The notes under the pieces were generated by a model that saw only the letters and a program-made list of their open reading frames with translations, was not told the DNA's origin and made no database searches. A stretch of DNA of 35,269 nt. It comes from Collimonas sp. OK607. Its GTDB lineage: Bacteria > Pseudomonadota > Gammaproteobacteria > Burkholderiales > Burkholderiaceae_D. The DNA is taken from the NCBI RefSeq assembly GCF_900111995.1, contig NZ_FOKF01000044.1:1-35269 (forward strand), given 5' to 3'. This document shows, piece after piece, positions 13,219-33,284 of this stretch (positions within the stretch are counted from its first letter, which is position 1; every line of letters begins with the position of its first letter). The position numbers were made by a program, and so were the translations under genes.

Positions 13219-13637
13219 GTTGTCTTCCCTGGCTATTGGTGATTGTTGGTGGCAGGACCCGGATGGGTATCAGGCAAACGCGAGTATACGAAGACGACCA
13301 GTTTCTTGAAAGTAATCATAACTTCCATGCATATGCGGTTTTCACATAAATGACGTTAGTCGACAACACGTCCCGATTAACTACCAGGAATCCCTCTTTA
13401 GCCGTTTTCGCTTCGGCGCAACACCGATCTCCAAATACCCCATCGTTACATTGACTATCCCACAAGAAATGTGCAATATATAAATCGACACCAACAATGT
13501 TTAACAAAAAATTACAAACACAGAAACATTGCCAGAAGACATTATTTTATTTGGTGGTTTCCAGTTATAAGCGCACCCAATTGGCACATCCGATAAACAA
13601 GGAGCGCGCAAGGAAACAAAGGGAGAGGATCACGTCA
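13219..13637. promoter_or_regulatory. Divergent intergenic region with a candidate promoter for the two-component operon
   Basis: This 419-base region separates the binding protein (minus) from the sensor kinase (plus). I see no gene; an ATG at 13497 is in frame with the kinase but gives 47 extra residues of unlikely composition. A candidate plus-strand promoter has -35 TTGACT at 13451-13456 and an A/T-rich -10 near 13475-13482 (AATATATA; spacing 18 or 20). That gives an untranslated leader of about 150 bases. Spacing is not ideal, so the promoter is tentative. Confidence 0.4.
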
Positions 13638-15344
13638 ATGTCTTGGCGCGAAAACACTATGCCGGCATCCAAGCTGGACGAACAAAATGAAATCGCGGCA
13701 AGTCTGACCACAGATGCCGCCGATGCGCTGATGGTTGCCCGGATGCGGCTGGTCTTGGCTGTTTCGGGTTTACTGGCGATTTTTGTCGACCCCTCCGGCT
13801 TAAGCGGCGTTAATCATTTCACTTGGTTCGTCTTTTCCGGCTATATCCTTCACAGCGTTGCCATTTACATTTTTTCGCTGCTTAACCTGCCATTCTCGCA
13901 AAGTAAGCGCGTCCACTGGCTGGATATCTGCTGGTATGCACTGATCGTTTTGTTCACTGGCGGCATCAACAGCTTTTTCTCCCTGTTCTTCTTTTTCGCC
14001 ATTCTCACGGCATCTTTTCGCTGGGGCTTCGAAGAAGGCGCGCGAATTGCCATTGCTTCAGCACTAATGCTTACCCTAACCGGCTTGATCTCCGAGGCCG
14101 GACAAGATCTTCCTCGGTTATTGTTGCGCACCACCTTCTTGCTGACGTTCGGATACATGAGCGCGCGCTGGGGGGAGTCGAAAATAGAACTGAAGCGCCG
14201 CATTGCCTTGCTTCGCGATGTCAGCCGGTTATCGAATCCTCGTTTCGGGGTCGATCACACCATTACCTCTGTCCTGAAGAAAACATTGGCGTTTTTCAAA
14301 GGCAGCAGCTGTATTTTGGTGATGCAGGATAAGGATTCCGCGATCTATTCATTGCGGACGATAAAAGAAGGCGATGCGGAGCAATCGATCAATGCCGTAG
14401 AAGTTCGTGCAGAAGCGGCATCACAGCTCATGGTTTTTCCCCAAGATCATATCGTTGCATACACCCGCCTGCTCGGGTCGTCCATGCCTATTCTCGGCGG
14501 AGCCCTGACGTATGACAGTGCGAGCGGAAAATGGGTCAAGCGCGATGAGGAAGCAAGCCAGAACATAGCCGAGCTTCTGGAAACAGATTCCTTCATTAGC
14601 GTTCCCTTGTCATTGCGAAAAGGTGACGGCCGTATTTATGTGGTTTCACGGAAGAACAGATTCAGCAAAACGGACGCCCTGTTTTTGAGTCATATCGCTG
14701 AACAGGCATTTCCTGTCATCGAGAACATCGAGATTCTCGACCGGATGGCCTCGGAGGCTGTCACGCAAGAGCGGAAAAAGATTGCGTTGGATATTCACGA
14801 CACTGCGATCCAACCGTATATCGGCTTAAAAATGGGGCTCAGTGCCTTGCGGAATAAAGCTTCTGCCGACAACCCATTGATAGAAGATATCGACAAATTG
14901 ATGGCAATGGCGGCACAGGTCATCGGCGATTTACGCCGCTATGCCGGAACATTTAAAAATGCATCAGGACAAACCGAACCGATATTTCTCGTGGTTCTGC
15001 GTCAACAGGCAGCGCAAGTCAGGGAATTCTACGGGATCGATATCGAAGTCAGCATGGTGGGCGAACTCAACGTCAGCGATCGCCTGATTGCGGAGGTGGT
15101 ACAAGTCGTGCGCGAGGGATTGAGCAATATATGCAAGCACACCGTCGCGCAACGGGGATGCGTAAAACTCCGCTGTACAAACGGATGGCTGAAAATTCAG
15201 ATCGAGAATGAAGGCGCCGGCCTCCCGGCAGCCGACTTCATACCGCGGTCGATTACCGAGCGGACTGCCGCGCTGGGCGGAAGGACGCACGTGAAGTCAG
15301 GGCCGGACGGCGGCACATCCGTATATGTCGAGATACCCGTTTGA
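13638..15344 (+). CDS. Membrane sensor histidine kinase, NarX/UhpB/DesK class (HisKA_3)
   Basis: The 568-residue kinase has an N-terminal block of about five or six membrane helices (about residues 30-190, e.g. SFFSLFFFFAILTASF). A GAF-like domain follows (about 200-370), then a HisKA_3 dimerisation domain with phospho-acceptor His387 in KIALDIHDTAIQPYIGLKMG, and a C-terminal HATPase with N-box EGLSNICKH. The G1 box reads ENEGAG rather than the usual DxGxG, a mild deviation. The start chosen is ATG 13638 because GGGAGAGG precedes it at good spacing. The cognate response regulator begins 12 bases after its stop, so the two are co-transcribed. The signal is unknown; integral-membrane sensing fits a lipid or envelope cue. 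The adjacent Tad locus is a possible target. Confidence 0.92.
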   Translation: MSWRENTMPASKLDEQNEIAASLTTDAADALMVARMRLVLAVSGLLAIFVDPSGLSGVNHFTWFVFSGYILHSVAIYIFSLLNLPFSQSKRVHWLDICWYALIVLFTGGINSFFSLFFFFAILTASFRWGFEEGARIAIASALMLTLTGLISEAGQDLPRLLLRTTFLLTFGYMSARWGESKIELKRRIALLRDVSRLSNPRFGVDHTITSVLKKTLAFFKGSSCILVMQDKDSAIYSLRTIKEGDAEQSINAVEVRAEAASQLMVFPQDHIVAYTRLLGSSMPILGGALTYDSASGKWVKRDEEASQNIAELLETDSFISVPLSLRKGDGRIYVVSRKNRFSKTDALFLSHIAEQAFPVIENIEILDRMASEAVTQERKKIALDIHDTAIQPYIGLKMGLSALRNKASADNPLIEDIDKLMAMAAQVIGDLRRYAGTFKNASGQTEPIFLVVLRQQAAQVREFYGIDIEVSMVGELNVSDRLIAEVVQVVREGLSNICKHTVAQRGCVKLRCTNGWLKIQIENEGAGLPAADFIPRSITERTAALGGRTHVKSGPDGGTSVYVEIPV

Positions 15345-15356
15345 AGAGGTAAAAAC

Positions 15357-16043
15357 ATGAAACCGGCAAAAGAAACCATTCGCGTAATGTTGATTGACGA
15401 TCATCAAACCATGCTGTGGGGATTGGGTAAATTGATTGACGGCGAAAAGCCGCGGATGGAGGTAGTCGGGACCGCACGAGGTTGTGAAGAAGCTCTTGCT
15501 AAAATTGAACAACTTGTCCCGGATGTCATTTTGCTGGACCTCGACCTGGATGGAAAAAACGGCCTTGATATCCTTCCGGCCCTGCTAACGAATGGCATAT
15601 CACGTGTATTGATCCTGACCGGCGAACGCCGGCAAGCGACGTTGGATATGGCTGTTCTTAGCGGCGCCCGAGGGATAGTGCACAAGGATGCATCGGCGGA
15701 ACAGGTACTGAAGGCAATAGAAAAAACCCATCGAGGTGAACTTTGGCTTGACCGTGAAGCGCTCGGCAGGGTATTCGGTGAACTCATGACCCCTGCAGCT
15801 GTGCGCAAGCCTGACTGCGAGGCGGAAAAAAAAGCAACCCTGACAGCCAAGGAACAAAAAATCATTCACACTATTATAGAGGGCAGCGGTGCTTCGAATA
15901 AAACACTTGCGCAGCGATTGTTCATCTCTGAACACACGCTGTGTAACCATTTGACCTCGATATACCACAAGCTGGATGTGAGTAATCGGCTTGAGTTGTA
16001 CGTGTATGCGACCAAGCATCAATTGGGGAATCCCAATCCTTGA
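15357..16043 (+). CDS. NarL/FixJ-family response regulator
   Basis: The 228-residue protein combines a receiver domain (about 8-130) and a LuxR/GerE-type HTH (about 165-222). The acidic pocket is Asp14/15 in MLIDDHQ, the phospho-acceptor is Asp61 in VILLDLDLDG, and the conserved Thr and Lys are in LILTGE and VHKDAS. The HTH reads KTLAQRLFISEHTLCNHLTSIYHKLDV, close to the NarL recognition helix. A GAAGAGG ribosome-binding site lies just upstream. It follows the kinase by 12 bases, forming a standard two-gene phosphorelay. NarL-type dimers bind short palindromes, and such a palindrome occurs twice in the promoter region of the Tad locus, so a regulatory link is plausible but untested. Confidence 0.92.
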   Translation: MKPAKETIRVMLIDDHQTMLWGLGKLIDGEKPRMEVVGTARGCEEALAKIEQLVPDVILLDLDLDGKNGLDILPALLTNGISRVLILTGERRQATLDMAVLSGARGIVHKDASAEQVLKAIEKTHRGELWLDREALGRVFGELMTPAAVRKPDCEAEKKATLTAKEQKIIHTIIEGSGASNKTLAQRLFISEHTLCNHLTSIYHKLDVSNRLELYVYATKHQLGNPNP

Positions 16044-16232: not shown

Positions 16233-17345
16233 TCAACGGGCCGAAGCTCGCATTGAATGAACCAGAGGAAAACGACGCACAGTAGTTTCGTCACAACGCG
16301 CCTGCGCCCCGACTAATTTCTCAGCGTCCTCTTCGATCGGCTCAGTGCCGGCCAAAGCTGTTGGCTGAAGATGCTGGAAACTGGTTAACGGCAGTCCGCT
16401 CTTCAAAAAATAGAGCGGACGATGCTTGCTTTCGTCGAACATGCGGGCGAGATACTCCCCGATGACGCCGATACTCAGCAGTTGCATACCGCCGAGAAAC
16501 ATGATCGCGACCAGCAAGGATGGATAGCCCGGTACCGGATTACCATAAATCAGCGTACGCAGGATGATGTAGAAGCCATAGCCGAAAGCGCCGACAGCGC
16601 TTACCAAACCGGCGTAGGTAGCCACCTTGAGCGGGATGCCGGTAAAAGAGGTGATGCCTTCGAGCGCGAAATTCCACAGTTTCCAGTAATTCCACTTTGT
16701 GGTCCCCGCGAAACGGGGCGCACGCCGGTAGGGAACCGCCTTTTGCGGGTAGCCGATCCAGGTGAACAAGCCTTTCATGAAGCGGTGCTGCTCACGCAAC
16801 TGAGCGATGGCGCCGACCGCGCGTCGACTCAACAAGCGATAGTCGCCGGTGTCTTCGGGAATGCGGATCTGACACATTTTTTGGATCAGCCGGTAAAATA
16901 AAAACGCAGTGGTTTTTTTGAGCATGCCCTCGCCGTCGCGGCAAGTGCGCATGGCGTACACGACATCGTAGCCGGTGAGCCATTGCGCGATAAGTTCGGG
17001 AATCAGTTCCGGCGGATCCTGCAGATCGGCATCGATGACGATCACGGCATCGCTATCGGCGTGATCTAGGCCGGCGGTAAGCGCAATTTCCTTGCCGAAA
17101 TTGCGGCTCAGGTCTACCAACATCACACGCGCATCTCGCGTCTGCAGTTCGTTGATGACGTCGACCGTGCCGTCGGTACTGCCGTCGTTGACGTAGATGA
17201 ACTGGCTACTCATGTCTACAGTATTGAGCACAGCGCACAGCCGCCGGTGGAATTCGGGCAAGACTTCCTGTTCGTTAAAGACCGGGACCACAATCGACAA
17301 CGATCTCCGGGGAACTTGTTCTAGCTCCATTTTGTCGAGTAGCAT
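16233..17345 (-). CDS. Family 2 glycosyltransferase, GtrB/DPM1/ArnC-like with C-terminal membrane helices
   Basis: The 370-residue protein has a GT-A domain (about 15-240) with SIVVPVFNEQEVL, YVNDGSTDGT, the metal-binding VIDADLQDPPELIPEL and GDYRLLSRRAV. Two membrane helices (about 250-320) follow, the architecture of polyprenyl-phosphate glycosyltransferases that load a sugar onto undecaprenyl phosphate (GtrB, ArnC, YfdH). The C-terminal 60 residues are polar and unrecognised. The start is ATG 17345 with GGAGGGG eight bases upstream. It is the last of three minus-strand genes after tadC (membrane protein, methyltransferase, this gene). Its product could feed a lipid-linked sugar to a glycan or protein O-modification pathway. 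Confidence 0.9.
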   Translation of the reverse strand: MLLDKMELEQVPRRSLSIVVPVFNEQEVLPEFHRRLCAVLNTVDMSSQFIYVNDGSTDGTVDVINELQTRDARVMLVDLSRNFGKEIALTAGLDHADSDAVIVIDADLQDPPELIPELIAQWLTGYDVVYAMRTCRDGEGMLKKTTAFLFYRLIQKMCQIRIPEDTGDYRLLSRRAVGAIAQLREQHRFMKGLFTWIGYPQKAVPYRRAPRFAGTTKWNYWKLWNFALEGITSFTGIPLKVATYAGLVSAVGAFGYGFYIILRTLIYGNPVPGYPSLLVAIMFLGGMQLLSIGVIGEYLARMFDESKHRPLYFLKSGLPLTSFQHLQPTALAGTEPIEEDAEKLVGAQARCDETTVRRFPLVHSMRASAR

Positions 17346-17472
17346 TGCTTACCCCTCCAAGTCATAAAACATGTGGCACCCGATCACGGCATCGGAAAAC
17401 TCAACAGGAACACGAGCTTGTCGATTACCGGGCCGGCACTTGCATTAGTTCCACCAGCGTTCAACATAACTA

Positions 17473-18237
17473 TCATTGGCGGGCTGGACGCCCTATGTAA
17501 TATTGGGTCCATAACAGCCCGGAGCCGACCTTGCCGCGCAATTTCCGCTCCAGCCACTGTTCCAACCTCAATCCGATTGCGCCACCAAATTCGGCAACCA
17601 AGGGCAGGTATAGCCCCGACTGGTATCGATCCGTAACCTCAAAACCGGCGGCGACCATCTGACTCTCCACCGTGCGCGCCGTCATCAGGTTGATGTGGCC
17701 CGTTTCCAGTATCGGTTCGCCGTAAATACGCCGCACCAGCTGAATCACACCGGGAAGAAAAGCGACCTTAGCCGCCAGTTCGAGCGGACTGTAGCGCTGC
17801 GGCGTCGACAGTACCAGCACCCCGCCCGGTTTAAGCAAACGCTGCATACCGCTCAACGCCGCCGCCGAGTTGGCAATATGTTCGATAACCTCGGTGCACA
17901 GAATGAGATCGAAACTGTGCGCAGGCAAGGACGAGGCGCATATATCGTCCAGCGCCAGTTGCAGGTTAGGCAGCTTTTCCCGCAAGGGTGCGGCATGATT
18001 CAGGAAGGCGGTTTCGATGTCGGTAGCGAACAGTTCGTCAAACAGGTTCGCCAGCACAGGCAAGTAAACGCCAGAGCCTGGCCCAACCTCCAACGCGCGC
18101 GCATGGGCCGACGGCGCGTAGCGGCGCAGCGCATCAAAAATCCAGTCGCGCCTGGTACAGTGCAGCCAGCGCCGGGTCGGATTACTGGAACGGTACAACG
18201 TTTCCTGCAGCGCCACCAATTCAAGTTCGGAAGCCAT
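17473..18237 (-). CDS. Class I SAM-dependent methyltransferase
   Basis: The 254-residue protein has the Rossmann methyltransferase signature. Motif I is ALEVGPGSGVYLPVLA (about 48-63), motif II-like acidic residues are in LFATDIE, and motif IV lies in FDLILCTEVIEHI, with LLKPGGVLVLSTPQRYSP after it. The style is that of the UbiE/Coq5-like group often found in glycan and lipopolysaccharide clusters. The start has AGGGAG eight bases upstream. It lies 65 bases after the polytopic membrane protein and 127 bases before the glycosyltransferase, all on one strand. The acceptor molecule is unknown; a sugar, lipid-linked intermediate or protein are all possible. Confidence 0.87.
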   Translation of the reverse strand: MASELELVALQETLYRSSNPTRRWLHCTRRDWIFDALRRYAPSAHARALEVGPGSGVYLPVLANLFDELFATDIETAFLNHAAPLREKLPNLQLALDDICASSLPAHSFDLILCTEVIEHIANSAAALSGMQRLLKPGGVLVLSTPQRYSPLELAAKVAFLPGVIQLVRRIYGEPILETGHINLMTARTVESQMVAAGFEVTDRYQSGLYLPLVAEFGGAIGLRLEQWLERKLRGKVGSGLLWTQYYIGRPARQ

Positions 18238-18302
18238 GACATCTCCCTCTGGTTCCTTGGTCCCGGCTTGGATACCGGGTTGTAATTTGTTCGCCAGGAC
18301 TG

Positions 18303-19856
18303 CTAACCTGGTCCTTGGTTCGCTGCCTTGCTCAGCAGCGCCTGAAATTTCGAGGTATTGCGCAGCAAGACTGAATGGTGCTGGTCAAAATAGACCTCTT
18401 TGAAACTGCCTTCCGCCAACAGCAGTTGCCGGATCGGCGCGTCCTTGCCAACGATGGCAAAGTCGATCGAGAGCCGGTCGAACTTCTCTTTCCAATTGGC
18501 TTTGCCTGAGTAGATGTCCAGAAAATCTGTAAGAAATTTGTCGCCGTATATGTCCGCACGCCCGTCAATAAACACTTTCAAGGCGGGCGACAAACGATAA
18601 ATCAGATACCCCCCCTCACCGTAGTTATTGAACATGTTGCCGGTGATGCCGTTGGCAGCCACAAAATTGGCTGCGTTGACCGGCAGCACTTCATTGACTT
18701 TCTCTTTGTCGTTGGAATGATATGTCGGCGCGTAGGCCACCAGGCTGGTAGTGAAGATAGCCAGCACGATCCAGTTCAATACGAATTCACCTTGGCCCAG
18801 TTCTTTACTGCTGCCAAGCCATTTCGTATACCACGACGCCAGGCTCGATCGATGCCAACTCGCCGAAATAGTCGCTATGGTGCCTCGTGAAAGCGCGAGG
18901 GCAATGAAAGGGACGACGGCCAAGACGGCCACTGGAATATGCCGGGTCGCCAGAAAGCCCATCACAATGAAAAAAGCTGGAATCAGAACTTCCGTGATAT
19001 CAGGTTTACGTGATGCAAAGCTGTAGGAAAGGATGAAGATCAGAACAAGCATCAGGTATGCTTTTGGGCCGAAATCATGGAAATTCGGACTTTGCCATTC
19101 CTGTATCAGGTCGTTTGCCGCCATGCCGAGTACCTGGAAGGGATACAGCCAGTGCGCCAGGAATCCCGGATTAATCAGACTCGCTAACGTAGTAGCGCAC
19201 ACCACCTGGGTCAGCCAGACCAGACGCTGCTTTTGCTGGCGCGTGCGTGCATGGCCCATCCAGTAATTGATCCATTCGCTGGACGTGAACAGGCCGACGA
19301 GCGCGATGCCGATCAGGTAGCCGCCGTGGGCGTTTACCCAAATTACCATCAGGAAGGGCAGCAGGAGCAGGGATCGTCCTGCGTTGTAATATTTATGGGT
19401 CAGCAACACAAACAGGAAAATGGCGAAGCAGCAATAGGTGATTAGCTGCGGTCGCGGTGCAAGACCGCCGGCAAAAGGGAGAGCCGCAATAAACATCAGG
19501 ACAGATGCGACTGCTGTCGACTGCGCGATTCGCCGTGTAAGGACAAAGACAATACCGAGGGCGGACATCGCGAAAGTGACGGTTAACAACTTCACCCCCA
19601 GCGGCCCCAACCATGCGAACATACCGTACAGCACAACCTCAAAGAGCCACTCATGCAACACCCAAGGTTGTCCGAAGCGCGTGAATGAGAAGATGTCGCC
19701 CGCTGGCAGCGCATGATGGGAGAGGATGTATTCTCCCGTTTTGAGATGCCAAAAATAGTCAGGGTCGATTAGAGGTTGAATAAAAAGCAGCAGCAGGAAT
19801 ACGGCAATGAACGACAGCCTTGTTTTATTGAGCAGCGTGGTTATGGTCATTAACAT
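18303..19856 (-). CDS. Polytopic membrane protein, GT-C-like, function unknown
   Basis: The 517-residue protein has about 10-12 predicted membrane helices followed by a soluble C-terminal part of some 130 residues. The first periplasmic loop, after helix 1, contains PLIDPDYFWHLKTGEYIL and PAGDIFSFTRFGQPWVLHEW. Acidic residues directly after helix 1 and a C-terminal globular domain are the layout of GT-C glycosyltransferases using polyprenyl-linked donors. The C-terminal motif NNYGEGGYLIYRL, followed by VFIDGRADIYGD, recurs in a family I know only as uncharacterised membrane proteins. The ribosome-binding site is poor, and ATGs at 19856 and 19850 are both possible. Next to a polyprenyl-phosphate glycosyltransferase gene, a sugar-transfer role is a reasonable guess, not proven. 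Confidence 0.75.
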   Translation of the reverse strand: MLMTITTLLNKTRLSFIAVFLLLLFIQPLIDPDYFWHLKTGEYILSHHALPAGDIFSFTRFGQPWVLHEWLFEVVLYGMFAWLGPLGVKLLTVTFAMSALGIVFVLTRRIAQSTAVASVLMFIAALPFAGGLAPRPQLITYCCFAIFLFVLLTHKYYNAGRSLLLLPFLMVIWVNAHGGYLIGIALVGLFTSSEWINYWMGHARTRQQKQRLVWLTQVVCATTLASLINPGFLAHWLYPFQVLGMAANDLIQEWQSPNFHDFGPKAYLMLVLIFILSYSFASRKPDITEVLIPAFFIVMGFLATRHIPVAVLAVVPFIALALSRGTIATISASWHRSSLASWYTKWLGSSKELGQGEFVLNWIVLAIFTTSLVAYAPTYHSNDKEKVNEVLPVNAANFVAANGITGNMFNNYGEGGYLIYRLSPALKVFIDGRADIYGDKFLTDFLDIYSGKANWKEKFDRLSIDFAIVGKDAPIRQLLLAEGSFKEVYFDQHHSVLLRNTSKFQALLSKAANQGPG

Positions 19857-26784: not shown

Positions 26785-26958
26785 TTAGGTGCAGCTAGTA
26801 GTAGTCAAACAACTCGCTACACGGGTAATAAAGTTAGCAAAGCTAGCGGTAGTCAGAGCATTGAGAGCGACAACCAGTGCGATAGATACCACTGCAATGA
26901 TTAAGGCATACTCGACAACTTGAGCCCCGCTCTCATCCTTAAGAAACTGAGTAAACAT
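26785..26958 (-). CDS. flp: Flp-type IVb prepilin, copy 2
   Basis: The 57-residue prepilin has leader MFTQFLKDESG, cleavage before AQVVEYALIIAVVSIALVVA (Glu5, Tyr6 conserved), and a short C-terminal tail SCLTTTSCT with two cysteines spaced C-x5-C. It is a paralogue of the gene just upstream; the helix segments are almost identical while leaders and the loop after the helix differ. ATG 26958 is chosen over an upstream codon because AAGGA lies eight bases away. Either or both paralogues may be the major Flp subunit. Confidence 0.93.
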   Translation of the reverse strand: MFTQFLKDESGAQVVEYALIIAVVSIALVVALNALTTASFANFITRVASCLTTTSCT

Positions 26959-27050
26959 GATATTTTCCTTTACAACGTCAATATCCACTTGGCAGCCGCA
27001 CGACTGGACTCTGGCGATTTAACTTAGTCTTAAGTCACTGTAATCAGAGC

Positions 27051-27761: not shown

Positions 27762-29414
27762 TTATTTGATTTCAGGAACAGCGGCAAGAGAACTAACTTC
27801 TACGTCTGCGACTGGAACTGGTGCTACTTCTGCGACTGGAACTGGTGCGGCGACTGCGACTGGAACTGGTACTGTCGTAGCGGTTGGAACTGGTGCTGCT
27901 TGTGCGACTGGAACCGGTGCTGCTTGTGCGGCCGGGACCGGTGCTGCGGCAGGGGCCGGAGCCTGTGCCGGAGCGGAGCCTTCCAGGCTGCCGTTGAAAT
28001 ACACTGCGCCGCGGCTAGGTACGACATGGTTGTCCGTCGGCAGCGTAGGCGCCTCTGCCAGCGGCTTCACCAGGTGCGGCGTAATCACGAACAACAGTTC
28101 CGTCTGATCAGTCTGGAACTCGGAACTCCTGAACAGCGCCCCCAGGACCGGCACCTCGCCCAAGCCTGGAAAACGCTTTATGGACTCAGTGACGTTGTTC
28201 TTGATCAGGCCGGCAATGGCGAAACTTTGTCCATCGTTGAGCTGGACGGTAGTATCCGCCCGACGTACAGTCAGCGACGGCAGCACTGCCGTGACGCCAC
28301 CGACAGTGGTGAACGGCGAGCCGACCTGCGACAGGTCTGACACTTCCGACACCATCTTCAGGTTGATCCGGGTGCCGTCCAGCACGGTGGGCATGAACTT
28401 CACGCCGATACCGAATTCCTTTTCTTCCAGCGTAATCGTGGGTACGCCATTATTGTTGGTTTGCGATACCGGAATGAAGATCTTGCCACCCGACAGGAAA
28501 CTGGCTTGCTGACCGCTGATAGCCATGATGTTCGGTTCAGCCAACACCCGCACCAGGCCATCATCCTTCTGTCCATCCAGATTTACCGCAGTCCTGCCAA
28601 TCTTCAACGCCTGCAGCAAGCCGGCACCGTTACTCAAGAAACTGGACAGCAGGGAGAAAGTATTGCTGCCGCCATTGCTGGCGCGAGTCAGGTTGACACT
28701 CGCCCCTAGTTTATCGAGCAATGTCTTGCTGACTTCGGCGATTTTCACTTCCAGCATCACCTGCTGCGGGGTCATGATGCGCAGCATGTTGACCACCTTC
28801 TTGCCGTCACCGTATGCAGTGGCCAGGTTCATCGCTTCGTCGAGCTTGACGGCATCAGTGACTTTGCCGGTCAGCACCAGTGCGTTTTCGGCTCCCCGTA
28901 CTCTAATCCCGGTTTCTTCAGGCATCAATTCGGTGATCTTGGCTTGCAGGCTGCCCGGGTCGACGGTAACGATGATGTCCTTGATGACGCAGCGCCCATT
29001 CGAGCCTTGCAAGACCACATTCATGGAGCCGGTCTTTCTCCCTAGAAAGAACAGTTCAGTAGGACTGAGCAACGTGATCTCCACATCTGCCACGCCATCC
29101 GAAGCTCCCTGTGCCGGCGCTGGCGGTGCATTCCCCGGCGCTGCCGGTGCGTTCTTGTCATTCGATGCAGGTGGTTTGCCCGCCCGGCTCGACGACTGGC
29201 CGCCGATCAGCATGCGCGCTGCGGGAGTATCCAGCCTGATGACACTCGATTTGCCGAGAGTGACATAAGTTACAGGGTCAACCGTTACGGATCCGCAAGG
29301 TTTCAGTCCTGAGGAGCCGGGAGTGTGAGTGGCAACAGGTGCAGTTGCCGCGAACGCGCCGCCTGTCATGGTCAACGCAGCGAAGAAGATCGCATTTTTT
29401 TGGTTGTTATTCAC
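27762..29414 (-). CDS. rcpA: Tad outer-membrane secretin RcpA/CpaC
   Basis: The 550-residue protein is the outer-membrane pore of the Flp pilus. It has a signal peptide (to about residue 22, GGAFA) and an N-terminal pilus/secretin domain interrupted by an Ala/Pro/Gly-rich insert (about 72-108). A BON-like domain (ALVLTGKVTDAVKLDEAMNLA) and the secretin core (about 260-460; VRVLAEPNIMAISGQQASFLSGGK, GIGVKFMPTVLDG, RFPGLGEVPVLGALFRS, TELLFVITPHLVKPL) follow. After the core comes an unusual 65-residue tail of seven Pro/Ala/Val octapeptides. The start is GTG 29414, with AGGGAG upstream. It lies between rcpC and the small lipoprotein. Confidence 0.95.
   Translation of the reverse strand: MNNNQKNAIFFAALTMTGGAFAATAPVATHTPGSSGLKPCGSVTVDPVTYVTLGKSSVIRLDTPAARMLIGGQSSSRAGKPPASNDKNAPAAPGNAPPAPAQGASDGVADVEITLLSPTELFFLGRKTGSMNVVLQGSNGRCVIKDIIVTVDPGSLQAKITELMPEETGIRVRGAENALVLTGKVTDAVKLDEAMNLATAYGDGKKVVNMLRIMTPQQVMLEVKIAEVSKTLLDKLGASVNLTRASNGGSNTFSLLSSFLSNGAGLLQALKIGRTAVNLDGQKDDGLVRVLAEPNIMAISGQQASFLSGGKIFIPVSQTNNNGVPTITLEEKEFGIGVKFMPTVLDGTRINLKMVSEVSDLSQVGSPFTTVGGVTAVLPSLTVRRADTTVQLNDGQSFAIAGLIKNNVTESIKRFPGLGEVPVLGALFRSSEFQTDQTELLFVITPHLVKPLAEAPTLPTDNHVVPSRGAVYFNGSLEGSAPAQAPAPAAAPVPAAQAAPVPVAQAAPVPTATTVPVPVAVAAPVPVAEVAPVPVADVEVSSLAAVPEIK
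27801..27968 (-). repeat. Seven tandem 24-bp repeats in the 3' end of rcpA
   Basis: Seven consecutive 24-base units, diverging towards the left-arm end of the coding sequence, encode the octapeptide APVPVAxx in the secretin tail. Units begin at 27801, 27825, 27849, 27873, 27897, 27921 and 27945. The core GACTGGAACTGGTGC is nearly invariant in the first five. Such in-frame arrays can change copy number by slippage. Confidence 0.9.
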
Positions 29415-30986: not shown

Positions 30987-31133
30987 TTATGTTTTCTTGA
31001 CCAGCGCTAACACCATCAGTAAACAAACTACGACGATAAGCGCGCCTACCAGCGCAAACTCTAATAACGACACGCCAGCATCGTCCATCAGGAAATACCT
31101 GGTGACATGCGACAGATCCTTGGAAAATCGCAT
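30987..31133 (-). CDS. Third, very short Flp-like prepilin (48 aa)
   Basis: A 48-codon gene, short enough to be missed by usual cut-offs, encodes MRFSKDLSHVTRYFLMDDAG followed by VSLLEFALVGALIVVVCLLM and VLALVKKT. The leader ends in Gly and the mature part has Glu5-Phe6, the type IVb prepilin pattern, but only 28 residues would remain: one helix plus KKT. AGGAGA precedes the ATG at ideal spacing. It is the first gene of the Tad locus, 84 bases before tadV and about 70 bases after a predicted promoter. It could be a minimal minor pilin or a regulatory or decoy substrate of TadV. A longer overlapping frame (30877-31470) is a shadow. Confidence 0.82.
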   Translation of the reverse strand: MRFSKDLSHVTRYFLMDDAGVSLLEFALVGALIVVVCLLMVLALVKKT

Positions 31134-31195
31134 AGGTTTCTCCTGAATAAATTTTCATAATTGACTCGACTTGTTTCGACTGAGCGCCGATGTTT

Positions 31196-31268
31196 GTGTT
31201 GTTGAGTTGAGTATAGGCAGGAGAAAAAGCAGGGGTATGAACGATGAGTCCTAATTTGAATAGGACCG
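31196..31268 (-). promoter_or_regulatory. Left arm of a 73-bp inverted repeat; predicted tad promoter
   Basis: This arm matches the right arm (31532-31604) in inverted orientation at 68 of 73 positions with no gap. Read on the minus strand it holds a palindrome GTCCTA-N7-TAGGAC (31248-31266) and a -10 TATACT (31210-31215) with no clear -35. That suggests an activator-dependent promoter starting near 31203, about 70 bases before the 48-aa prepilin. The palindrome would be centred near -54. All mismatches between arms fall between operator and -10. Confidence 0.7.
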
Positions 31269-31531
31269 ACCGCCTTTTTTTGATCAGGGAAGGCAGGAGT
31301 AATCCACTAGGACAATCAGGAGAAATCCATCCGAAGCGTATTCGTACGCCGTGTAACCGCTCACGTAAATGATTCAGAAAAAACGTATCAATGCTGGCTG
31401 GCAACTGGGAAACACGCTGACGGATCATCCCGGCATCAGCTGCTGTAAAGTTCAAAAATAATTTCCACACAGATTCATCCTGTCCGCCCCAGTAGATTTA
31501 TCTTGCCCGTCCTCAATTAAATAAAGGCGCG
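31269..31531. other. Spacer between the two promoter arms, no gene seen
   Basis: This 263-base stretch between the inverted arms has no supported gene. A further half-site TAGGAC occurs at 31308-31313. Nothing else repeated or structured stood out, so it may only separate the two outward-facing promoters. Confidence 0.4.
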
Positions 31532-31604
31532 CGGTCCTATTCAAATTAGGACTCATCGTTCATGCCTCCGTTTTTCCTCCTGCCTATACTCAACTCAACA
31601 ACAC
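31532..31604 (+). promoter_or_regulatory. Right arm of the 73-bp inverted repeat; predicted rightward promoter
   Basis: The copy of the tad promoter arm on the plus strand. The palindrome GTCCTATTCAAATTAGGAC lies at 31534-31552 and the -10 TATACT at 31585-31590, both identical to the left arm. Transcription would start near 31597 and run rightwards to the terminator at 31857-31890. Confidence 0.65.
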
Positions 31605-31890
31605 GAGCATTGCCGTATCGAACATGATGTCGACATTGCCGATACTGAAGGCAGTGGAGTATTTCGACGCGCAAGACGTGCCGGGTGCATGGCCATGGCC
31701 GCACCGACCCGACTGGCGGATTTCGCCGCCGCGGCCAGATCTGATTGCGACTGAGAATTAGCAGCGAGCGACGATGTGCGGCAGGACTGCAGCGTCTATC
31801 GTAGCTGGATGTGCAGAACCAACCAATTTTTCCGCTCAGCCTGCCACGGCTGATTTCCGCTCCTGATACCAGAGGAGGAGCGGGTTTTTT
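31597..31890 (+). ncRNA. Candidate small transcript (about 295 nt) or short-peptide gene
   Basis: Between the rightward promoter arm and a strong terminator lies a stretch without a recognised gene. A 45-codon frame (ATG 31624, stop 31759-31761) begins MMSTLPILKAVEYFDAQDVP, but it has no ribosome-binding site and I recognise nothing in it. Either a small RNA or a poorly translated peptide could be produced. The call rests only on the promoter-like arm and the terminator. Confidence 0.4.
31857..31890 (+). terminator. Rho-independent terminator, plus strand
   Basis: CCGCTCCT (31857-31864) pairs perfectly with AGGAGCGG (31876-31883), followed by G and TTTTTT (31885-31890). No recognised plus-strand gene lies before it back to the rightward promoter arm, so it implies a transcribed unit there. 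It also faces the end of the convergent HTH regulator gene. Confidence 0.85.
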
Positions 31891-31958
31891 ATTTCAAAGT
31901 CGGCGAGGTATTAACGCCGGTGAATTGCGGGAGATTTCAGACACCTCCCGTGAACATG

Positions 31959-32630
31959 TTATTTAGCGACGCTCGCCGAAATCGGCTCTGACGCGTCCGC
32001 ATCGAATCTGAAGCGGCAAACATGCGCTCCCTTCACCATACATGCTTCATGCACCACTTTGCTGTCGGTAAATGTGGAGAGCAACGCAAGATCGAATCGG
32101 CACACCTGGGGGTGTTTGCTTGCCAGATCATGGAACACGCAATTGTCGGCCTCGATAACCGGAATACCTTTTATGTTGGCTGGAGCATTGGGATTGACCC
32201 TGTAGCCAAGCTCTTCCATGATCACGGCCAGATTCTGCACCTTGGCGGACAGACTTTCTCCTGCTGCGCCGTTAACGCGCAACTGTTTCGCCACTGTTTC
32301 ACCCATGGCAGCGAGGCGTGCGCCGGCACCTTCTTCACCAGCCTCCTGTTCCAGCATCCCCATCAGTAATTGCGCAAACCAGGAATACTGACGAGGGAAA
32401 GAGCTATTTCCCTTGTCGGTCAATACATACAGCTGTTCCGGACGCCCGCCGGATGGCCGGGTAATGCTTTTTGTCACAAGCGTGTTTGCTTCCAGCGTAG
32501 CCAGGTGCTGCCTGACCGCTGTACGCGTTATACCGAGAGCCTTGGAGAAGTTATCAACCGTCAGGCCGGCTTTATTTTTGATGAGGAGCTCAAGGAACTC
32601 CCTGTGCCGCACTCCTATCATGTCGCTCAT
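31959..32630 (-). CDS. SufR-like HTH regulator with predicted Fe-S cluster site
   Basis: The 223-residue protein has an N-terminal winged HTH (about 5-75; DNFSKALGITRTAVRQHLATL and RPSGGRPEQLYVLTDKG wing) and a C-terminal domain with four cysteines at 164, 177, 197 and 205, spaced C-x12-C-x19-C-x7-C. The segment NCVFHDLASKHPQVCRFDLA matches the SufR/COG2345 style, where such cysteines hold an Fe-S cluster that controls DNA binding. The start is ATG 32630 because GAGGAG lies at proper spacing; GTG 32636 is too close to it. It is divergent from the DUF4142/cupredoxin pair, with a 9-bp inverted repeat between. It may sense iron, oxygen or redox stress. Confidence 0.85.
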   Translation of the reverse strand: MSDMIGVRHREFLELLIKNKAGLTVDNFSKALGITRTAVRQHLATLEANTLVTKSITRPSGGRPEQLYVLTDKGNSSFPRQYSWFAQLLMGMLEQEAGEEGAGARLAAMGETVAKQLRVNGAAGESLSAKVQNLAVIMEELGYRVNPNAPANIKGIPVIEADNCVFHDLASKHPQVCRFDLALLSTFTDSKVVHEACMVKGAHVCRFRFDADASEPISASVAK

Positions 32631-32683
32631 TTTCACTCCTCAACTCGCATCTGGCGAAGCCAGCCTTTATTATGACAGAAGCA

Positions 32684-32718
32684 CTTAAAACATAAAAGGC
32701 TTTACAAAGTGTTTTAAG
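32684..32718. promoter_or_regulatory. Inverted-repeat operator candidate between regulator and DUF4142 gene
   Basis: CTTAAAACA (32684-32692) is matched exactly by TGTTTTAAG (32710-32718) across a 17-base spacer. It lies midway in the 129-base divergent promoter region. It is a good candidate site for the SufR-like regulator, acting on both directions. Confidence 0.5.
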
Positions 32719-32759
32719 CTGATTATTCTGAATTTTTAACCAGATAACGAGGCTCAAAA

Positions 32760-33284
32760 ATGAACACCGCACTAAACGTCTTGATTGCAGGCATGTTGAC
32801 CTTGGGAACTACGGTAGCGATGGGCCAGTCAGCAGCCCCGAACGATGCGCAGATTGCCGGAATTGTGGTCGCGGCCAATACAGTGGATATCAATGCCGGC
32901 ATGGTGGCCAAATCGAAATCCCATAACAAGGAAGTAAAAGAATTTGCGCAGCGCATGATTACCGACCATTCCGGCGTCAATAAGCAGGCCACGGCTTTAG
33001 TCACCAAGTTGCACGTCACACCAGAAGATAGCGCGACAAGTAAAAGCCTTAAAGATGGCGGCGTAGCGAACCTGAAGCACCTCCGCACACTTAAGGGCAA
33101 AGCATTCGACGCGGCTTACGTCGACCATGAAGTTACTTATCATCAGGCGGTCCTCGACGCGATTGACAAGACTCTCCTGCCCAGCGCCCAGAACGCCGAG
33201 TTGAAAGATCTGATTACGAAAGTCCGGCCTGCAATCGATGCCCATTTGCAGCACGCGAAAGAAATTCAAGCGTCAATGAAATAG
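32760..33284 (+). CDS. DUF4142 domain protein, exported
   Basis: The 174-residue protein has a signal peptide (ending near VAMGQS) and a ferritin-like helical DUF4142 domain: AQIAGIVVAANTVDINAGMVA, VKEFAQRMITDHSGVNKQA and a C-terminal AIDAHLQHAKEIQ. The conserved TDH and H...H residues resemble a four-helix metal-binding bundle, although no activity is established for the family. GAGG precedes the ATG. It is followed after 4 bases by a type 1 copper protein and is divergent from the SufR-like regulator, suggesting an envelope redox or stress unit. Confidence 0.9.
   Translation: MNTALNVLIAGMLTLGTTVAMGQSAAPNDAQIAGIVVAANTVDINAGMVAKSKSHNKEVKEFAQRMITDHSGVNKQATALVTKLHVTPEDSATSKSLKDGGVANLKHLRTLKGKAFDAAYVDHEVTYHQAVLDAIDKTLLPSAQNAELKDLITKVRPAIDAHLQHAKEIQASMK

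Follow-up and report, generated by a model that had tools for sequence, protein, structure and literature searches.

A predicted activator-dependent tad promoter in Collimonas sp. OK607 and an inverted copy that may drive a small RNA

Introduction

PprB of Pseudomonas aeruginosa is a NarL-like response regulator, and members of the NarL family bind short palindromes. According to the available parts of the published report, PprB and its partner PprA form a two-component pair that is encoded within the flp-tad-rcp locus and acts as a positive regulator of the pilus genes (PMC3510237). This PprAB control of tad is the nearest known system to the locus of the soil bacterium Collimonas sp. OK607 described here, where a two-component pair is likewise encoded at the tad locus. 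The two differ in what is recorded of their promoters: the predicted PprB site, GGCTAATAC, is unlike the palindrome found in Collimonas (PMC6821963), and an inverted twin promoter is not mentioned in the available parts of either P. aeruginosa paper (PMC3510237, PMC6821963).

Response regulators also switch on small RNAs, as described in the accessible sections of reports on GacA and RsmY/RsmZ, DosR and DrrS, and QseF and GlmY (PMC2375449, PMC5360333, PMC6075780). RsmY/RsmZ, DrrS and GlmY are known from experiments, whereas the Collimonas RNA is a prediction and would be driven by an inverted copy of a pilus promoter. At a related tad locus, that of Variovorax paradoxus EPS, an antisense RNA signal in the operon of flp and the prepilin peptidase is reported from RNA-seq in the portion of the paper available (PMC7494200). 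The predicted Collimonas RNA would resemble it as a non-coding transcript at a tad locus, but the V. paradoxus RNA is antisense to the pilin operon, while that of Collimonas would extend outward from tad without covering any of its genes. The antisense signal lends plausibility to RNA-based control of a related tad locus but comes from a different transcript. Among the matches listed in our literature search, given as titles and the beginnings of abstracts, we found no description of a twin inverted tad promoter arrangement, nor of an operator for the tad-linked regulator in Collimonas and its relatives.

Results and Discussion

An inverted pair of predicted promoter modules at the head of the tad locus

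The window, that is the whole stretch of 35,269 nucleotides analysed here, represents one entire contig of the OK607 genome. Its tad locus is headed on the reverse strand by a flp-like gene of 48 aa (30987..31133, -), whose match to Flp_Fap lies below the curated cut-off (E 0.021) and which is followed by the genes for a prepilin peptidase, CpaB/RcpC and a secretin. As a pilin-like protein, the product of the head gene is unusual; the canonical Flp pilin, of 67 aa, is encoded inside the locus (26785-26988) and has two matches in each of three further Collimonas genomes (L080-L082). The 3' end of the secretin gene carries a 24-bp tandem repeat of about six copies (27803-27948).

Upstream of the head gene, a repeat finder recovered an inverted pair of 109 nt with 84% identity, consisting of a left, tad-facing arm (31185..31293, -) and a right arm (31507..31615, +). 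The six remaining inverted pairs within the 5.3 kb around it measure just 14-22 nt each, and the 109-nt pair is therefore not attributable to chance. The cores of the two arms (31196-31268 and 31532-31604) align gap-free and are identical at 68 of 73 positions; this comparison reproduced the repeat with two outward-facing modules that a preliminary description of this DNA had proposed. Each module consists of the palindrome GTCCTA-N7-TAGGAC, 32 nt and a TATACT hexamer. The left operator (31248..31266, -) and left -10 (31210..31215, -) predict a transcript start at about 31203, some 54 bp downstream of the operator centre, and the right operator (31534..31552, +), which is identical to the left one, and right -10 (31585..31590, +) predict a start at about 31597. 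A lone GTCCTA half-site with TCCTGCC repeats is located upstream of the left operator (31308-31313, -), and TCCTGCC is found again just before the -10.

The exact palindrome occurs at two places in the window, the two arms. When the 5.37-Mb genome was scanned for the composite of operator, 32 nt and TATACT with up to three mismatches, eight matches were obtained, the arms having 0 mismatches and the other six 3 each; the reversed pattern gave 27 matches in the same genome at this threshold. With up to two mismatches, the composite module is found in the two arms only. The bare palindrome without the -10 was counted in eight genomes and did not exceed its reversed-pattern control. No sigma-70-like pair of -35 and -10 was found between 30900 and 32000, which confirmed, together with the module scan, the earlier view of one palindrome and one TATACT common to both arms with no clear -35. 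The constant spacing of palindrome and -10 and the lack of a -35 are the layout of an activator-dependent promoter. A mobile element or dispersed repeat was considered and rejected, as the only matches of the region in its own genome are those of the two arms to each other.

The left arm as a probable conserved tad promoter

The tad-facing module is kept in relatives. In eight of the nine Collimonas genomes with the locus, TATACT follows the start of the left operator at a distance of exactly 51 nt, with zero or one mismatch in the 5+5 bases of the operator; in the ninth (L081), ATCCT-N9-AGGAC and TAGAAT are spaced alike. Fetching tad loci by their CpaB yielded 57, of which 51 are from outside Collimonas. 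Twelve of these 51 contain a palindrome of GTCC or CTCC type at a distance of 50-51 nt from a hexamer resembling a -10, namely loci of Polaromonas (L028-L030 and L044), Acidovorax (L031), one Variovorax (L032), Herminiimonas (L070) and Massilia (L046, L047, L054, L055 and L077). The five Massilia loci are mutually similar, score only at 2-3 mismatches and have the palindrome 729-765 nt upstream of CpaB; in the other seven it is located 900-982 nt upstream. Singly, these palindromes are weak and near chance (0.05-1.15 chance matches per non-Collimonas locus for the generic scan and 0.08-0.52 for the 3-mismatch one), and it is their common consensus and spacing that carry the weight. Left out of the twelve were L034 with a C-rich palindrome, L076 with GTCC-type half-sites (GTCCTA...GGGAG) and no accepted -10, and off-motif matches, which occurred at about the chance rate. 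No accepted module of palindrome and -10 was found in the other 39 loci, including most of those from Variovorax, where either the operator differs or the scan missed it. According to our analysis, the tad-facing left arm is probably an old and conserved promoter.

A NarL-type response regulator as candidate activator

At the far end of the tad locus, in an arrangement resembling that of PprAB, are a HisKA_3 sensor kinase (13497..15344, +) and a NarL/FixJ-type response regulator with Response_reg and GerE domains (15357..16043, +), of which the latter is our candidate activator and the former its probable partner. The kinase is also found beside the regulator and tad in L080-L083. The preliminary description had pointed to this regulator, and the linkage of a response regulator of fitting family to the locus held up: it is encoded on the tad contig in all nine Collimonas genomes that have the locus, as judged by a close CpaB, with 84-95% identity across the eight others. 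The remaining six of the 15 genus genomes are without close relatives of both the regulator and CpaB, having distant relatives or none.

The distance between the regulator and the last tad gene is 13-82 nt in the Collimonas genomes L080-L082 and about 1 kb in L083, a genome of the same family; in OK607, three further genes are found between them. These genes (16233-19856) encode a glycosyltransferase, a methyltransferase and an unknown protein of 517 aa, for which there is no room between tad and the regulator in L080-L082. Across the 29 other tad genomes searched, 28 contain a relative of the regulator at E <=1e-30, and the contig of this relative agrees in length with the tad contig in 13 of the 16 genomes compared. 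All three exceptions are MAGs, and one of them, L083, has the regulator beside other tad genes.

From linkage and family membership, we posit that the regulator may bind the palindrome and that it is likely the activator of the tad promoter. It is rather doubtful that the palindrome is bound instead by another transcription factor, for which it speaks that some tad genomes without a recognised operator still carry relatives of the regulator. The P. aeruginosa site predicted for PprB, to judge from the available part of that report, points in the same direction, being different from the palindrome and having no exact match in the window; the six one-mismatch matches there (4.34 expected) are all outside the promoter region. 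Another factor is, however, at odds with the joint presence of the regulator and an operator-like module at the tad locus in all nine Collimonas genomes, and with the finding of no further full module in the OK607 genome, which is expected for a local regulator. A comparison of recognition helices supports no claim either way, since it included some wrong-frame proteins and the helix is kept also in a taxon without the operator.

Origin and distribution of the right arm

Searching the aligned tad upstream regions for the inverted pair, as proposed earlier, recovered it in C. antrihumi (L023), but it is not general to tad loci. Both arms were found in two of the nine Collimonas genomes with the locus, OK607 and C. 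antrihumi, and one module in the other seven, five of which are more distant genomes where the scans could miss a more diverged second arm. When the four arms of the two species are compared in gap-free columns from the operator outward, seven sites group them by side and one by genome. In the whole arm alignment, the upstream part of which is alignment-sensitive, eleven sites group by side, one by genome and one cross-wise. The sole by-genome site is a T/A variant in the operator that both arms have in common within each species. The right arms thus appear to descend from a single inverted duplication within a clade of four species.

In a tree of 2.8 kb, OK607 and OK242 form one pair (0.975), C. 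antrihumi and OK307 another (0.991); this tree was used instead of a 6-kb tree, which was distorted by differing gene content. The tree of cpaB alone agrees with the pair of OK607 and OK242 and does not recover that of C. antrihumi and OK307. The right arm is absent from OK307 and OK242, which both retain its 3' flank, the missing piece in OK307 amounting to about 240 bp between matching flanks. Two separate losses within the clade are therefore the simplest history of the second arm and a probable one. In OK307 (L027), about 250 bp separate the tad edge from the next gene (286 aa). In OK607, a SufR/PadR-like regulator and a DUF4142 gene (31959-33284) adjoin the tad edge and have no tblastn match in L023-L079.

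A predicted short transcript from the right arm

The preliminary description had one copy driving the tad genes and the other an unannotated unit. The right arm does run towards a terminator, and what it drives would most likely be a short RNA without coding function. An intrinsic terminator with a 9-bp stem, a loop of 11 and T6 is located at 31856..31890 (+; -15.5 kcal/mol, z -2.75); it is missing from the list of one scanner, whose loop limit is 8. From the predicted start at 31597 to this terminator, the transcript would span about 297 nt (31597..31893, +), and its counterpart in C. antrihumi 158 nt, ending in a terminator with T8 (-11.6 kcal/mol, z -3.61). In OK307, the hairpin stem is set apart from a T4 run (z -1.24), and in OK242 there is no T-run (z -0.32). 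Hence among the four species, the terminator is intact in the two with the right arm and degraded in the two without.

No ORF is common to the transcripts of OK607 and C. antrihumi. A 45-aa ORF at 31624-31761 was rejected as the coding unit: it has no Pfam match, its best match in 15 genus genomes has an E of 0.043, no ribosome-binding site was seen by eye, and it is absent from the 158-nt counterpart. An open 3' frame found in both transcripts was likewise rejected, having by eye no common start codon. Rfam gave no match in the window at gathering score. The unit has the sequence features of a small RNA under response-regulator control, namely the site of the candidate regulator, a short predicted transcript and an intrinsic terminator. 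Searches by duplex energy and by exact complementarity found no convincing target of the predicted RNA. In the former, covering 27 regions of OK607 with 30 shuffles each and computed without an accessibility term, the start of the regulator gene ranked top (z -4.9); in the latter, complementarity was at most 8 nt in five start regions, and none of at least 8 nt was found at flp in C. antrihumi.

It is very unlikely that the two palindromes form a bipartite operator for tad, by cooperative binding or a loop of about 286 bp, with the right arm as a binding site and not a promoter. This reading would fit two identical operators near tad and a combination of operator and -10 without further occurrence in the genome when up to two mismatches are allowed. 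It would, however, leave the right -10 and the terminator superfluous, the distance between operator centres differs (286 bp in OK607 versus 241 bp in C. antrihumi), and seven of the nine Collimonas genomes were found with a single module.

Divergence of the two arms

The preliminary description had placed all five differences between the cores in the stretch between palindrome and -10. They do fall there (31224-31236 in the left and 31564-31576 in the right arm), but this is partly a boundary effect, because the arms were cut where matching ends. Counted from the operator outward in 87 gap-free columns, the OK607 arms differ at 13, with 0/19 in the operator, 5/32 in the spacer, 0/6 in the -10 and 8/30 after it, and the chance of 0 differences in the 25 sites of operator and -10 is 0.008. 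Of about 33 columns upstream of the operator, 9 are mismatched and 2 are gap columns, counted with gaps since a gap-free alignment overstates the differences there. The arms of C. antrihumi differ in 23 of 87 columns, again with none of them in the 25 sites of operator and -10 (hypergeometric P 9e-5). Selection on operator and -10, as suggested earlier, is thus consistent with their 0/25 changes in both species, but a freely drifting spacer in the left arm does not fit the counts: between the left arms of OK607 and C. antrihumi, the spacer differs at 1/32, less than the part after the -10 (5/30) and much like the upstream part (3/32 plus gaps). The spacer that has drifted is that of the C. antrihumi right arm.

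The right arm might instead be a decaying relic of the inverted duplication, idly transcribed at most, with the left arm as the working tad promoter; we regard this as possible, though improbable. The presence of the right arm in two of nine Collimonas genomes and its probable double loss would be in line with decay, as would the C. antrihumi right arm, whose spacer differs from that of its own left arm at 12/32 and which lacks the ATCG-N2-CAT stretch present in Collimonas left arms. The transcript start and 3' part are conserved between OK607 and C. antrihumi, but the middle is not, which also suits a relic. Decay is harder to reconcile with an operator and -10 unchanged between the arms of both species while neighbouring bases diverged, and with intact terminators in just the two species that have the right arm. 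In favour of a maintained right arm, those of the two species also have 23 of 24 bases in common after the -10.

In OK607, the left and right spacers differ less (5/32) than the right spacers of the two species do (14/32), whereas after the -10 the opposite is seen (8/30 versus 2/30). This contrast could be accounted for by gene conversion in the OK607 lineage or by rapid drift in that of C. antrihumi, and because of the bases after the -10, the duplication is older than the spacer likeness suggests. We offer it as a tentative idea that the tad locus acquired a dedicated regulatory RNA when a copy of its own activator-dependent promoter was flipped, so that both units would be switched together by a single private regulator that has two genomic sites, and that gene conversion kept the cores of the arms alike.

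Conclusion

The best reading of the locus, to which we assign a probability of about 0.6, is that of an activator-dependent tad promoter with a flipped copy that makes a small RNA. The left arm would be the main tad promoter, with a -10 but no -35, needing an activator on the 19-bp palindrome upstream of its start; this activator would most likely be the NarL-type response regulator, together with its kinase. An inverted duplication of the promoter, at a distance of 240-290 bp centre to centre, would have taken place in the common ancestor of four Collimonas species. The copy would face out of the locus and drive a short RNA, probably non-coding, with its end at the terminator. Since both arms have the operator module in common, the signal that switches on the pilus genes would also switch on the RNA.

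For the tad-linked regulator in Collimonas and its relatives, this provides a concrete candidate operator with a conserved and directly testable geometry. The second copy was probably lost twice and therefore looks dispensable; it may represent a young case in which promoter duplication gave rise to a possible regulatory RNA, probably lost again in two of four species.
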